Source: Collinsella sp. OM04-5 (GTDB lineage: Bacteria > Actinomycetota > Coriobacteriia > Coriobacteriales > Coriobacteriaceae). From it: a DNA stretch of 59,807 nt. This document shows, piece by piece, positions 1-55,674 of the stretch. The position numbers were made by a program, and so were the translations under genes. The notes under the pieces are model-generated. The model did no database searches. It was not told where the DNA came from and saw only the letters and a list, made by a program, of their open reading frames with translations. The stretch covers positions 1-59,807 of the forward strand of contig NZ_QSUU01000016.1 in NCBI RefSeq assembly GCF_003439125.1, read 5' to 3'. Every line of letters begins with the position of its first letter. Position 1 is the first letter of the stretch.

Positions 1-290
1 AGGCGAACGCGGCCACCGCGGCCGAGCTCGTGAGGTGGCTGTGGGCCCTCGGCGCGATGTGCCGGGAGGGCGCGGATAGACATAAGCCCCCGTCCCGGCG
101 AGCCGGGCGGCCTTCGGGGACACCCCCGTTCTCGCTGTGCGCGCGGCGGCCGCCGCATGCGCGAAGACAGACTAGGGGAACCCCGCCGAAGGAGAGGATT
201 GCGGGCCGCCGGAGCGGTATCCGCGGATATGAGACTGAGCCGAAGGCGTCGATGACATGCCGGGGGCGGACCGGGACGGGTTTAACGGCA

Positions 291-326
291 GGCCCCGCCG
301 ACCGATTGCAAGCGGTCGGCGGGGCC
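291..326. terminator. Strong GC hairpin, possible terminator
   Basis: Perfect 14-bp arms (GGCCCCGCCGACCG and its complement) flank an 8-nt loop. Neither side is followed by a clear T tract, so it may be a terminator for a gene outside the window or a structural repeat. The direction is undecided. Confidence 0.4.
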
Positions 327-369
327 ATTGTGGCCCTTGACAGTGGATTGGGTCATATGAGCGAGACGG

Positions 370-457
370 CGTCAGCTGAGTCGATTTGGCCCGAAAGAGG
401 AGGGAGCACGCCTTATGGCGGCGACCGACGAATGAGCGCCAAATCGGCCAGCTGACG
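370..457. repeat. Long imperfect palindrome downstream of rnpB
   Basis: The left arm 370-390 (CGTCAGCTGAGTCGATTTGG...) is matched by the right arm 438-457 (...CCAAATCGGCCAGCTGACG), with about 18 of 20 bases paired and a ~47-nt middle. It starts ~23 nt beyond the 3' end of rnpB (minus strand). It could stop rnpB transcription, but no T tract follows, and it resembles the other long intergenic palindromes of this window. Confidence 0.6.
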
Positions 458-479
458 TCGTCGCAGCGTCAACAAGAAA

Positions 480-841
480 GCTGAGTGAGCCTGTAAGCCG
501 GGTTCTGTCGTGAACGGTCATTTATCTTGTCTGCACGTTACCGTGCAGCTCCACGCACGCTACCCGAACGCGGACCGGGCCGGCCCATAGCGTTCCTATT
601 CGCGCTTGCTCCGGATGGGGCTTGCCAAGCCGCCGTGTTGCCACGACGCTGGTGGTCTCTTACACCACCGTTTCAGCTTTTCCCTTTACGCCTTGCGGCG
701 CAGGTGGGAGTCTTCTTTTCTGCGGCGCTTTCCGTCGGATCACTCCGCCCGGCCGTTAGCCGGCATCCCGCCCTCTGGAGCCCGGACTTTCCTCACGCGT
801 GCTGCAAGCAGCACATCGCGCGACCGTCTGGCCCACTCAGC
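480..841 (-). ncRNA. rnpB: RNase P RNA (bacterial type A-like)
   Basis: Catalytic RNA of RNase P, which matures the 5' ends of tRNAs. On the minus strand the 3' end carries the diagnostic ACAGAACCCGGCTTACAGG, and the 5' part carries GAGGAAAGTCCGGGCTCC and the AGGGTG/GGTAA-type core words in degenerate form. The P1 helix is visible: GCTGAGTGGGCC at the 5' end (841 downward) pairs with GGCTCACTCAGC at the 3' end (up from 480) with a single G-U, which fixes both ends within a few bases. The length of about 362 nt is normal for the family. Confidence 0.95.
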
Positions 842-3420: not shown

Positions 3421-3424
3421 GGGT

Positions 3425-3480
3425 TAGTCGTTGGGGACGTTCTTAAAAGACTGGTCAAACAAGAACGTCCCCAACGACTA
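3425..3480. repeat. Perfect 20-bp inverted repeat (GGGGACGTTCTT type)
   Basis: Arms 3425-3444 and 3461-3480 are perfect reverse complements with a 16-nt loop. It starts 5 nt after the HAD stop codon. No T tract follows on either strand, so an ordinary terminator is unlikely. The arm word GGGGACGTTC recurs in degenerate form in the tandem repeat just downstream. Confidence 0.8.
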
Positions 3481-3487
3481 CCATGAC

Positions 3488-3541
3488 AAGGAGTGTCCCA
3501 ATGTGCCGGCAGATAAGGAACGTCCCTAAGTGCCGGCTTGG
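3488..3541. repeat. Two tandem copies of a 27-bp repeat
   Basis: Copies at 3488-3514 and 3515-3541 both read AAGGA-N-GTCCC-N-A-GTGCCGGC with about 20 of 27 bases identical. They lie directly between the 20-bp palindrome and the structured repeat element. Confidence 0.7.
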
Positions 3542-3548
3542 AAAAGGA

Positions 3549-3717
3549 CCGCCGGTAGAACAAAAGTCAGCGAGCGGGTCGCATTTGAGGCAAGGTGCCG
3601 TGAAATGAAAGGGCGCTGACCTTTCGGTCGCGCCCTTGAAATTGAACGGCAGATTGTCCAAATGCGGCCCGCGCAGCGTCGGCCGGTCCGCCGTTCGGCA
3701 GAACGGCGGAACCTCAG
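3549..3717 (+). ncRNA. Candidate structured RNA element, copy A
   Basis: Conserved word AGTCAGCGAGCG (3565-3576), then stem P1 GGGTCGCATTTG pairing with CAAATGCGGCCC (3659-3670), an inner stem GCCGT/ACGGC, a bulged hairpin AAGGGCGC-T-GACC/GGTC-GCGCCCTT with loop TTTC, and a 3' hairpin CCGCCGTTC/GAACGGCGG with loop GGCA. Copy B at 55509-55674 keeps the layout while the stem sequences differ. A P1 T-G wobble in each copy is compatible with a plus-strand RNA. It lies between two convergent genes. Function is unknown; it may instead be a dispersed DNA repeat. Confidence 0.6.
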
Positions 3718-3723
3718 GCGTAA

Positions 3724-5043
3724 CTAGCAAACCCGTGTTTTGCCGATCATAATGTTGAGGATTTCGACGTCGGTGTCCTTCATGCCCACACGGCCCACGT
3801 AGCCCATGCTGGCGATTGTCTGCTCGACGGTATCCTGAATGAGGCCCTCGCCGGCGCGGAAGCCGCGACCCTGCATAGCCATATCGTGGCCCAGAATCGC
3901 CGCATCAACGGCAGCCGAGATCTTGGCGGCACAGCTCGCCTTGGCGCCGTCGCACACGATGCCGCCCACGTTGCCAAGCGTATTCGAGACCGTCGCGCCA
4001 ATCTGTTCGCGCGTGCCACCGCACAGCCAGGCAATCGCAGCGCCGGCGCCGCACGCAGCGCAAATAGCACCGCAAAACGCCGAAAGCGCACCAATATAGC
4101 TCTTGATATGCACGGCGATAAGATCGGACAGCATCACGGCGCGCACCAGGCGCTCGTGGTCGCAACGCAGGTACTCGGCATACTCCATGACGGGCAATGC
4201 GCAGGTAATTCCCTGATTGCCCGAGCCGCACACAATGGCGACCGGCAGCGCGCAGCCGTTCATGCGAGCGTCGGATCCGGCGGCCGCACGGGCACGGGCA
4301 CGGCAGGCAACGTCATCGGCACGAGCACCCAGCAGCGTACGACCCACCTCGGCGCCCCAAGCGTGCGCAAGGCCCTCGGCACTGATTGCGCCATTCAGCT
4401 CAATCTGACGCTCAACGGCAGCGCGGGCGTCCTCAATGTCACCGTCCTCGATAAAGTCGATGATGGACTCAATCGACATGGGCGTGTCGGCCTTATCCGC
4501 CGCCCGCTCGGCCACCACGCGCTCGGCGCATGCAGCACACTCCCCCGCCGACTTGCCGCATACCGGAATACCGTCGAGGGTATGGCACGTGACATTGGTG
4601 TGGTGGTCGGTAATCTCGACGACCGCGGTATGGCCCCCAGCCGTCGCAGTCACCTTGATGTAGAGGTTGGGTACACCCTCGACAAGCGACACGTCGCAGT
4701 AACCAGCATCGGCGAGGAGCTCGGCCACGCGAGCACGATCTTCGTCGTTAACGCACTCGAGCACCTCGAGCGCGCTCTTGGCGTCACCGCCCACGGCACC
4801 CAGTACGGCCGCTGCTTCAATACCGTGCATACCGCCCGAATTGGGCACGGTCACGCTCTTAACGTTCTTGATGATGTTGCCCGAGCAGGCAACGTCCATA
4901 TGATCGGGCTCGCAACCGAGTGTCTGGCTCGCCAGCGCCGCTGCATAGGCAACGGCAATAGGCTCGGTGCAGCCGAGCGCACAGACAAGCTCGCGGTTCA
5001 AGACATCGCAAAAAGCGGCATCGCGGATGGAATCGGTAGGCAT
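3724..5043 (-). CDS. L-cysteine desulfidase family protein (UPF0597/YhaM-like)
   Basis: Likely breaks L-cysteine into pyruvate, ammonia and sulfide, using an oxygen-sensitive iron-sulfur cluster in the cytosol. The 439 residues match the full-length family: an early conserved ALGCTEPIAVAYA (residues 22-34) contributes a cluster Cys, followed by Gly-rich blocks such as GCALPVAIVCGSGNQG and a Cys-rich SAFCGAICAACGAGAA segment near residue 320. The ATG at 5043 has GCAGGAG upstream; the longer frame adds 29 unrelated residues. In databases the family is often labelled serine dehydratase alpha-subunit-like, so the exact substrate is inferred. Confidence 0.85.
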   Translation of the reverse strand: MPTDSIRDAAFCDVLNRELVCALGCTEPIAVAYAAALASQTLGCEPDHMDVACSGNIIKNVKSVTVPNSGGMHGIEAAAVLGAVGGDAKSALEVLECVNDEDRARVAELLADAGYCDVSLVEGVPNLYIKVTATAGGHTAVVEITDHHTNVTCHTLDGIPVCGKSAGECAACAERVVAERAADKADTPMSIESIIDFIEDGDIEDARAAVERQIELNGAISAEGLAHAWGAEVGRTLLGARADDVACRARARAAAGSDARMNGCALPVAIVCGSGNQGITCALPVMEYAEYLRCDHERLVRAVMLSDLIAVHIKSYIGALSAFCGAICAACGAGAAIAWLCGGTREQIGATVSNTLGNVGGIVCDGAKASCAAKISAAVDAAILGHDMAMQGRGFRAGEGLIQDTVEQTIASMGYVGRVGMKDTDVEILNIMIGKTRVC

Positions 5044-5314
5044 AGGTATCTCCTGCTTACATAACGGACTGGACTCTCGATAATAGTTAGCTCTTTTATT
5101 TGATAACAATGCATCAAAAACCGCAACCATAGTTCCGACGGACGGCGTTCAAGCGCAATCCGACGGCATTCATTCATGAAAAGCCGGTCTTGTTGCATGC
5201 TAAAGCGTTTGACCAAAAAACGCCCGAGCGTTTACACAAAAGTCGCGCTATCATGCAGTCGAACGCGGTAAAACCTTTAGCAATTCCGCCGCACGGACCA
5301 GAGAGGAACCACTC

Positions 5315-55283: not shown

Positions 55284-55500
55284 TGGCGCAAAGTAACCTG
55301 ACCCCTTTGCACCAACAGCAGAAACGTCGCGGGCAGAGAACGGACAGCGAACAGGCACCAGAGCGAGCAAGCCGCCCCCTGCGCCAACAATGGCAGCGCC
55401 GCAGGTTGAGCATAAGTCAGCGAAAGCCCACCAGAGCGAGCAAGGTGACGTGAAAGAGGAGGGCATGGCGCAAAGCAATCTGACACCTTTACACCAACAA
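55284..55500. repeat. Degenerate tandem repeats, partial copies of the structured element
   Basis: The block TGGCGCAAAG-N-AA-N-CTGACNCCTTTNCACCAACA occurs at 55284-55318 and 55466-55500. Between them a partial copy of the element (GGCAGCGCCGCAGG-TGAGCATAAGTCAGCGA...GTGACGTGAAAG, 55392-55455) lacks the 3' half. A weaker version lies at 55315-55380. This is a graveyard of decayed copies beside full copy B. Confidence 0.6.
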
Positions 55501-55508
55501 AGGCAGCG

Positions 55509-55674
55509 CCGCAGGATGAGCATAAGTCAGCGAGCGCCGTCCAGGACGTACAAGTTGGCATGAAAAAGGCAAGGCATAGACCTTTTGGTCATGCCTTGCC
55601 TTTTGAATGACAAATTGTCGTCCTGGGCGGCGCGCAGCGTCGACCGGTTCCGGCGTTTGGTAAAACGCCGGAAC
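55509..55674 (+). ncRNA. Candidate structured RNA element, copy B
   Basis: AGTCAGCGAGC is conserved (55526-55536). P1: GCCGTCCAGGACG pairs with CGTCCTGGGCGGC (55618-55630), one wobble. Inner stem TTGGCAT/ATGACAA. Bulged hairpin AAGGCAAGGCAT-A-GACC-TTTT-GGTC-ATGCCTTGCCTT. 3' hairpin CCGGCGTTT/AAACGCCGG with loop GGTA. The layout equals copy A (3549-3717) while stems are rewritten. The flanking word GCGCAGCGTCG is kept in both. Confidence 0.6.

Follow-up and report, generated by a model that had tools for sequence, protein, structure and literature searches.

A high-copy, covarying long-hairpin repeat set antisense behind gene ends in Coriobacteriia, probably a mobile REP-like element

The structured element found in a Collinsella contig belongs to a high-copy family of patchy taxonomy, the copies of which share a covarying structure on one strand, lie antisense at gene ends, occur as filled and empty alleles and exchange stem, flank and terminal-hairpin types between loci. 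With moderate confidence, we read this element as a non-autonomous, mobile, REP-like interspersed palindromic repeat of Coriobacteriia, with a long hairpin whose single-stranded fold is under selection. The family, apparently large and not described before, occurs in gut relatives of Collinsella and Eggerthella. Genes are often followed by palindromic repeats, and it has long been asked why these lie at stop codons and which of their features are under selection. Both questions become readable in this element, in which tens of copies per genome keep the shape and two short feet while other sequence varies, and of which close relatives supply many natural filled, empty and swapped alleles.

The window, that is the whole stretch of 59,807 nucleotides of Collinsella sp. 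OM04-5 DNA that was analysed, had been described in a first-pass annotation as carrying a divergent two-copy element. Both copies are real and correspond to positions 3566-3713 (copy A) and 55526-55674 (copy B). They have in common AGTCAGCGAGC, the hairpin tip, GCGCAGCGTCG and the 3' hairpin, and folding gives for each of them one long imperfect hairpin followed by the 3' hairpin. In a shuffle test of the fold, the z values were -8.6 for copy A and -11.8 for copy B, and 0 of 200 shuffled sequences folded as well. Direct reading agrees with the annotation that the P1 arms differ in sequence between A and B with pairing kept, each copy having one U.G wobble on the plus strand. A third copy of the window (copy C, E 3e-19) was recognised by the covariance model described below; its 3' end is located 2 nt before the RNase P RNA (478-839, minus strand) and its 5' foot is interrupted by an IS110-type end. 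The 3' end of copy A lies 10 nt from the stop codon of a converging gene. Copy B is an exception in placement, with 140 nt and other hairpins between it and the end of the converging gene. Hairpins of the form GTTNCG...AAC were attached to an element core in all 84 cases encountered in the loci scanned. The features are collected in Table 1.

Table 1. Positions of the element copies and associated features in the window.
Feature	Position	Strand	Basis or remark
Copy A, 5' foot GTCAGCGAGC	3566..3575	+	No variation among the 52 aligned copies, which were themselves found with GTCAGCGAGC
Copy A, P1 5' arm	3576..3587	+	Folding
Copy A, tandem G.A internal loop, GUGAAA side	3600..3605	+	Other side 3642-3647; direct reading and folding
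Copy A, apical bulged hairpin	3611..3635	+	Folding
Copy A, P1 3' arm	3659..3670	+	Folding
Copy A, 3' foot GCGCAGCGTCG	3671..3681	+	No variation among the 52 aligned copies, which were themselves found with GCGCAGCGTCG
Copy A, 3' hairpin	3685..3713	+	
Copy A, converging gene, serine dehydratase alpha (PF03313)	3724..5130	-	Stop codon 3724-3726
Copy B, 5' foot	55526..55535	+	
Copy B, long hairpin	55536..55631	+	P1 arms 55536-55548 and 55619-55631; folding
Copy B, 3' foot	55632..55642	+	
Copy B, 3' hairpin	55647..55674	+	Folding
Remnant of another copy upstream of B, truncated 5' half	about 55416-55470	+	Direct reading
Copy C	345..475	+	Covariance model, 75.5 bits
IS110-family end in the foot	1-358		Also in L287, L309, L310, L341, L343, L426 and L428

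The complete unit is about 190 bp long and consists of a short 5' module, the foot GTCAGCGAGC, the long imperfect hairpin, whose length is near-constant, the foot GCGCAGCGTCG and usually a terminal hairpin of 25-29 nt; according to folding, the two feet are only partly complementary. The foot-gap-foot pattern was detected in 28 of 43 genomes of the genus and the reversed control pattern in none of the 43. Among the matches listed, which include chance hits, the pattern also appears in records of Collinsella, Slackia, Adlercreutzia, Gordonibacter, Enteroscipio, Ellagibacter and Thermophilibacter, and in Eggerthellaceae, Coriobacteriaceae and Atopobiaceae records. A crude stem-pairing filter passed 103 and failed 53 of the 156 pattern matches from the fetched loci and the window; this filter is imperfect, failing some Coriobacteriia copies (L052, L061) and passing one Nocardia match (L056). 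The covariance model was built from an alignment of 52 non-redundant copies, L056 being left out as lying outside Coriobacteriia. In Collinsella genomes the model found matches in 38 of 42 at E 0.001, with best E-values reaching 1e-30, and the description as a two-copy element has to be abandoned, as 20 of these 42 genomes hold 36-51 matches each and the other 22 hold 0-31. Across the class, matches at E 0.0001 were obtained in 35 of 119 genomes and 18 of 70 genera, all of them from three families of one order. It should be noted that such per-genome counts are slightly inflated by opposite-strand echoes and deflated by a ceiling of 80 (genus) or 28 (class) candidates scored in each genome. 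Two genomes were followed at the level of single copies: G003 (a single contig), with 37 element places after removal of 6 of 43 matches, of which three were weak (E 0.02 to 0.9) and three repeated counted places on the opposite strand, and the Eggerthellaceae genome G101, with 42 matches.

That this is a conserved structured RNA, as first proposed, holds for the covarying structure, which is found across many genomes. An RNA gene as such is not supported; the element is a high-copy interspersed repeat that is polymorphic between strains. Covariation persists in the larger alignment of 77 copies, where its score is 0.78 compared with 0.19 after shuffling, kinship not being modelled. In these 77 model-aligned copies, 95.5% of the cells pair, against 64.2% when shuffled and 29-52% when slid by 1-3 columns, and both-side changes number 556 against 146 in shuffles; the covariance-model alignment leans towards its own structure and the tests model no phylogeny. 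Pairs with a both-side change (23 of 26) are barely above the shuffled expectation (20.8; 20 of 500 shuffles reach 23). A separate MAFFT alignment analysed with RNAalifold yielded 26 pairs, 21 of them with at least one compensatory change.

The preference for the plus strand, also proposed from the window alone, is general, since this strand out-folds its complement in 52 of 52 copies, by a mean of 10.8 kcal/mol, and G.U pairs exceed A.C pairs by 58 to 27 in the same set. Over the modelled pairs of the 77 copies, the corresponding counts are 132 and 35, or 83 and 34 when the tandem-wobble columns are removed; a tandem U.G/G.U wobble is present in 19 of the 77 rows. With a simple pattern, the tandem G.A loop, GAAA on one side and UGA(A,G) on the other, was recognised on both sides in 36 of the 77 copies, on one side in 26 and on neither in 15. 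On the complementary strand, mismatches (U.C and A.C) would stand in place of G.A and G.U. The apical loop is mostly C-UUNN-G, with CTTCTG in 13 and CTTCGG in 12 of the 77 copies.

The probability that the family results from chance similarity or an alignment artefact is negligible. Pattern hits outside Coriobacteriia, four viral ones included, do look accidental, and the 53 failures in the pairing filter, for all its errors in both directions, point the same way; for the Coriobacteriia copies this reading is refuted by the E-values, by the empty reversed control and by covariation far above the shuffled and slid controls. Carriage by phages was likewise rejected, all four viral hits failing the pairing filter.

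In comparison with known RNA families, nothing in the window scored above the gathering threshold except RNase P, and no Rfam 15 family matches the window copies at threshold, so that routine RNA annotation would overlook the element. Rfam hits obtained close to the copies under permissive settings amounted to noise, microRNA included. The annotation had left undecided an identity with the Collinsella-1 motif (RF01700), which is also structured, non-coding and from the same genus. The two are different: the RF01700 model has no match in the window, and in the four genomes searched with it a second match never occurs within one genome, while G003, with its 37 element places, has none. The literature drawn on, in part, comprised PMC3733652, PMC2817692, PMC2864571 and PMC8040213. 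No prior description was found in open-access text; the supplementary lists of PMC8040213, with thousands of candidate RNAs, some from Collinsella, may contain the element.

The first-pass annotation had further held that no neighbouring gene family explains the copies. This is correct as to gene families; neighbours are not irrelevant, however, as in most cases the 3' ends of the element and of a converging gene directly adjoin. In G003, the right-hand gene converges for 35 of 37 copies and its stop codon lies within 40 nt for 31 of 37. In copies with a terminal hairpin, the stop is mostly found 27-32 nt past the modelled core; in those lacking this hairpin, it is at most 9 nt past the core or slightly inside it. 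The copy at 384321 is 2 nt from the RNase P RNA. Among GTDB loci, 59 of 69 right-hand genes converge, 48 of them within 60 nt, with some GC-rich loci miscalled by the gene model. In G101, where contexts were read for 30 of the 42 matches, 25 of 27 called right-hand genes converge and 20 do so within 60 nt. These G101 counts were obtained with a Collinsella-trained gene model, a choice checked with Pfam, which supports 19 of the 20 close genes on the converging strand; a model trained on the G101 loci themselves gave 6 converging genes of 26 and was judged to have been trained on antisense frames. The neighbours are unrelated to one another and include aminoacyl-tRNA synthetases, a peptide release factor, QueA, PurH, UvrD, SecY, a sigma factor, GreA and ABC proteins, among others. 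The stop codons adjoining the element are 22 TAG, 8 TAA and 1 TGA against a background of 100, 82 and 8, a shift that is not striking.

Orientation is also strongly linked to replication in both G003 and G101. In G101, 40 of 42 matches follow a switch of strand between 1.64 and 1.96 Mb, and 81 leading were counted against 8 lagging genes, the origin being assumed near coordinate 0. With the origin of G003 taken at dnaA, 6 of its 37 copies break the replication trend, five of which still converge on a gene. The gene rule thus fits better, with two exceptions in G003 compared to six for the replication rule. In the same genome, about 530 kb opposite dnaA (1.75 Mb), from 0.38 to 0.91 Mb, contain none of the counted copies, the 37 being elsewhere. 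Shorter relatives with the same inner hairpin, another closing stem and no feet occur at G003 positions 198436, 1385467, 1482029 and 1805120, and end within 0-9 nt of a stop codon.

A tentative alternative is that the copies are cis-acting 3'-end elements, which would end, insulate or stabilise transcripts at gene boundaries and turn over by gene conversion among functional copies. Its variants, a terminator of the preceding gene or a barrier that keeps antisense transcription out of the gene, are equally tentative. The near-zero distance to the stop, the mostly fixed orientation behind very different genes in two families and the copy directly behind the RNase P RNA are in agreement with such a role, and in several element-free strains the corresponding site has an ordinary terminator (by eye) or another long hairpin. 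By contrast, no terminator-like site (a hairpin with a U-tract) was seen near copies A or B where shuffled sequences lead one to expect 0.8-1.2, other copies being read by eye, and at locus 1482029 a downstream hairpin-containing stretch is kept with or without the element. Moreover, it is the strand complementary to the mRNA that carries the conserved tandem G.A and the G.U pairs, and copies are patchy even inside one genus.

The fold would also suit small RNA genes acting in trans, in which the folded strand is transcribed, converges on the neighbouring gene and ends in the shared 3' hairpin, an explanation that we regard as very unlikely. The strong RNA-like covariation, the tandem wobbles on one strand and the UUCG tips, which are frequent though not commonest, are consistent with it, as is a sense-orientation copy of Gordonibacter (L093, 5366-5483) located between two His_biosynth (PF00977) genes. 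However, no shared promoter is evident, given that the 5' flanks vary from copy to copy and are exchanged; in G101, 17 of 25 left-hand genes have their start at most 60 nt from the element, where a promoter would have little space; and an RNA acting in trans would not need to abut stop codons. The finding of no promoter-like site beside copies A or B is uninformative, as only 0.1-0.3 would be expected by chance. As to the form that is selected, the tandem wobbles and UUCG tips lean towards RNA, whereas the absence of a shared promoter and the little upstream space lean towards DNA. By adjacent sequence, the histidine site of L093 apparently recurs in Enteroscipio (L105) and at G101:1309575.

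Mobility is indicated by the comparison of alleles. At the site of copy A, 8 of 22 tested alleles are empty, the convergent genes meeting at CTAG (five alleles) or TTAA (three), and 8 of 22 contain an insert of 192-193 nt with GTAG on its left and CTAG on its right; two more inserts measure 200 and 252 nt. One and the same pattern was used, which left 4 of the 22 alleles unmatched (the window, L249, L266 and L269), the window site holding other repeats too; nine more distant loci (L270-L278) were read by eye only. The TAG repeats flanking the insert resemble a target duplication, but the stop codons there are themselves under selection. At several other loci, the alleles look like replacements rather than clean insertions.

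Exchange between loci was followed at 12 gene ends of G003, 11 of which were compared with up to eight other genomes, taking in 80 of 96 matches and none for locus 2038778. The element was strictly recognised in 41 of 92 gene-end instances, by a pattern that missed feet that were altered or interrupted by an insertion sequence, and short forms; ten stem types were distinguished, six of them at more than one locus. Between orthologous pairs, which are not mutually independent, the stem type differs in 66 of 91. At locus 1932957 the terminal hairpin stays with the locus while the stems change, and in the chimera L386 two types meet in the apical region that they share. In some strains, a complete newer element has beside it the remaining 5' half of an older hairpin, both at the RNase P RNA site and at locus 1550293; these remnants resemble the one beside copy B. 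A second, unrelated long-hairpin family, holding a GTTTATCGCGAGTTCCGCAC-like or related sequence, was observed behind stop codons in L368-L371, L373, L374 and L352 (G003 loci 1550293 and 1205019), and the element can take the place of its 3' half. Yet another hairpin repeat, CTAAGTGAGTAGACTTTTT ... AAAAAAGTCTACTCACTTAG, lies behind a different gene in L332-L334, L336 and L337.

The search for a mobilising enzyme was directed at Y1 transposases and found no mobiliser. Y1 transposases are present in 36 of 42 genomes of the genus (83 matches), namely in 30 of 30 genomes with at least eight element matches and in 6 of 12 with fewer (Fisher p 1.8e-4). No clear element was found beside Y1 genes at 33 loci (32 distinct, of the 83 matches), where the search returned only one match of 21 bits, and RAYT was rejected as the mobiliser on this ground. 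Since the Y1 loci examined lack the element, the correlation with copy number may reflect a general richness in repeats. Of the 18 RAYT-type loci inspected, most have their gene surrounded by other inverted repeats. Several Y1 genes of these Collinsella genomes lie between long inverted repeats whose core is GGGGAC or GGGAC and which differ from the element in sequence and architecture. Beside copy A, positions 3424-3540 of the window hold other repeats (TAGTCGTTGGGGACGTTC and similar) with a GGGGAC core, which is the core of the inverted repeats around some Collinsella RAYT-like Y1 transposases. Several Y1 genes resemble the TIR-flanked transposases presented in PMC3733652.

That paper (Di Nocera et al. 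2013) describes REPs as palindromes of 20-40 bp with an unpaired GTAG or CGTC tag. Most of them follow coding regions, and in two species the 3' end of a convergent ORF is mostly less than 20 bp away; the GTAG ends often supply TAG stops; the CGTC stems are of 8-9 bp and begin with A-T pairs. The element resembles REPs and BIMEs in being a high-copy intergenic palindrome near ORF 3' ends, often with an adjoining TAG stop, and an IS target, and its 3' foot GCAGCGTCG has CGTC just before the hairpin. It differs in its size of about 190 bp (192-193 nt for the insert), in its long imperfect hairpin with conserved internal loops, strong covariation and mostly fixed antisense orientation, in a terminal hairpin of about 12 bp whose first pairs are unlike those of the CGTC families, and in not lying beside the RAYT genes examined. 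As it behaves like a REP but falls outside the definition by size and tag and is not adjacent to RAYT genes, we place it as a variant of REP-type repeats. Like MITEs, it is short, non-coding and multi-copy, with an empty/filled polymorphism and a possible short target duplication at the copy A site; unlike them, it appears to lack perfect terminal inverted repeats and is mostly fixed in orientation to genes, and no parent transposon was seen in a transposase search limited to Y1. Integron attC sites lie directly behind the stop codon of a gene, with the folded strand antisense to it. The element shares this position and strand; however, its feet misfit the core-site consensus, no cassette arrays were seen around it and its neighbours are ordinary core genes.

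If the copies are indeed mobile REP-like repeats, spread would involve recognition of the folded single strand, either ssDNA or RNA. Shape and feet would then suffice, and any sequence keeping the shape and the two feet would survive. Non-allelic recombination would overwrite existing copies, with breakpoints at the feet and the hairpin apices. Persistence behind stop codons may be explained by an insertion that repeats the stop tetranucleotide and leaves the gene intact, and copies in mRNA would then serve as 3'-end hairpins. Several observations argue against this reading: the search of Y1 loci gave no mobilising enzyme, the alleles at several loci look like replacements, insertion tolerance alone leaves the fixed orientation and near-zero distance unexplained, the unit is far longer than REPs, and the favoured strand is on the leading-strand template. 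IS608-type insertion has a strand preference opposite to this orientation. A SINE-like or single-strand-templated mobile element, whose heritable identity would be an RNA-like fold and not a sequence, and which would copy itself exactly behind transcript 3' ends and then evolve through swaps of whole hairpin cassettes between sites, is an unlikely form of mobility; the targets it supposes, 3' ends of mRNAs and of RNase P RNA alike, are unlikely to the same degree. Should the folded strand move single-stranded, a new route of repeat spread would be at hand; should it be RNA, this would be a large unlisted RNA family of common gut bacteria.

Finally, the right end of an IS110-family element (PF02371, PF01548; transposase read in L428) falls exactly in the 5' foot at several loci, among which copy C is included by its matching end sequence. 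The 5' foot is apparently a target of this family, and these ends in the foot offer a natural test case for bridge-RNA targeting.
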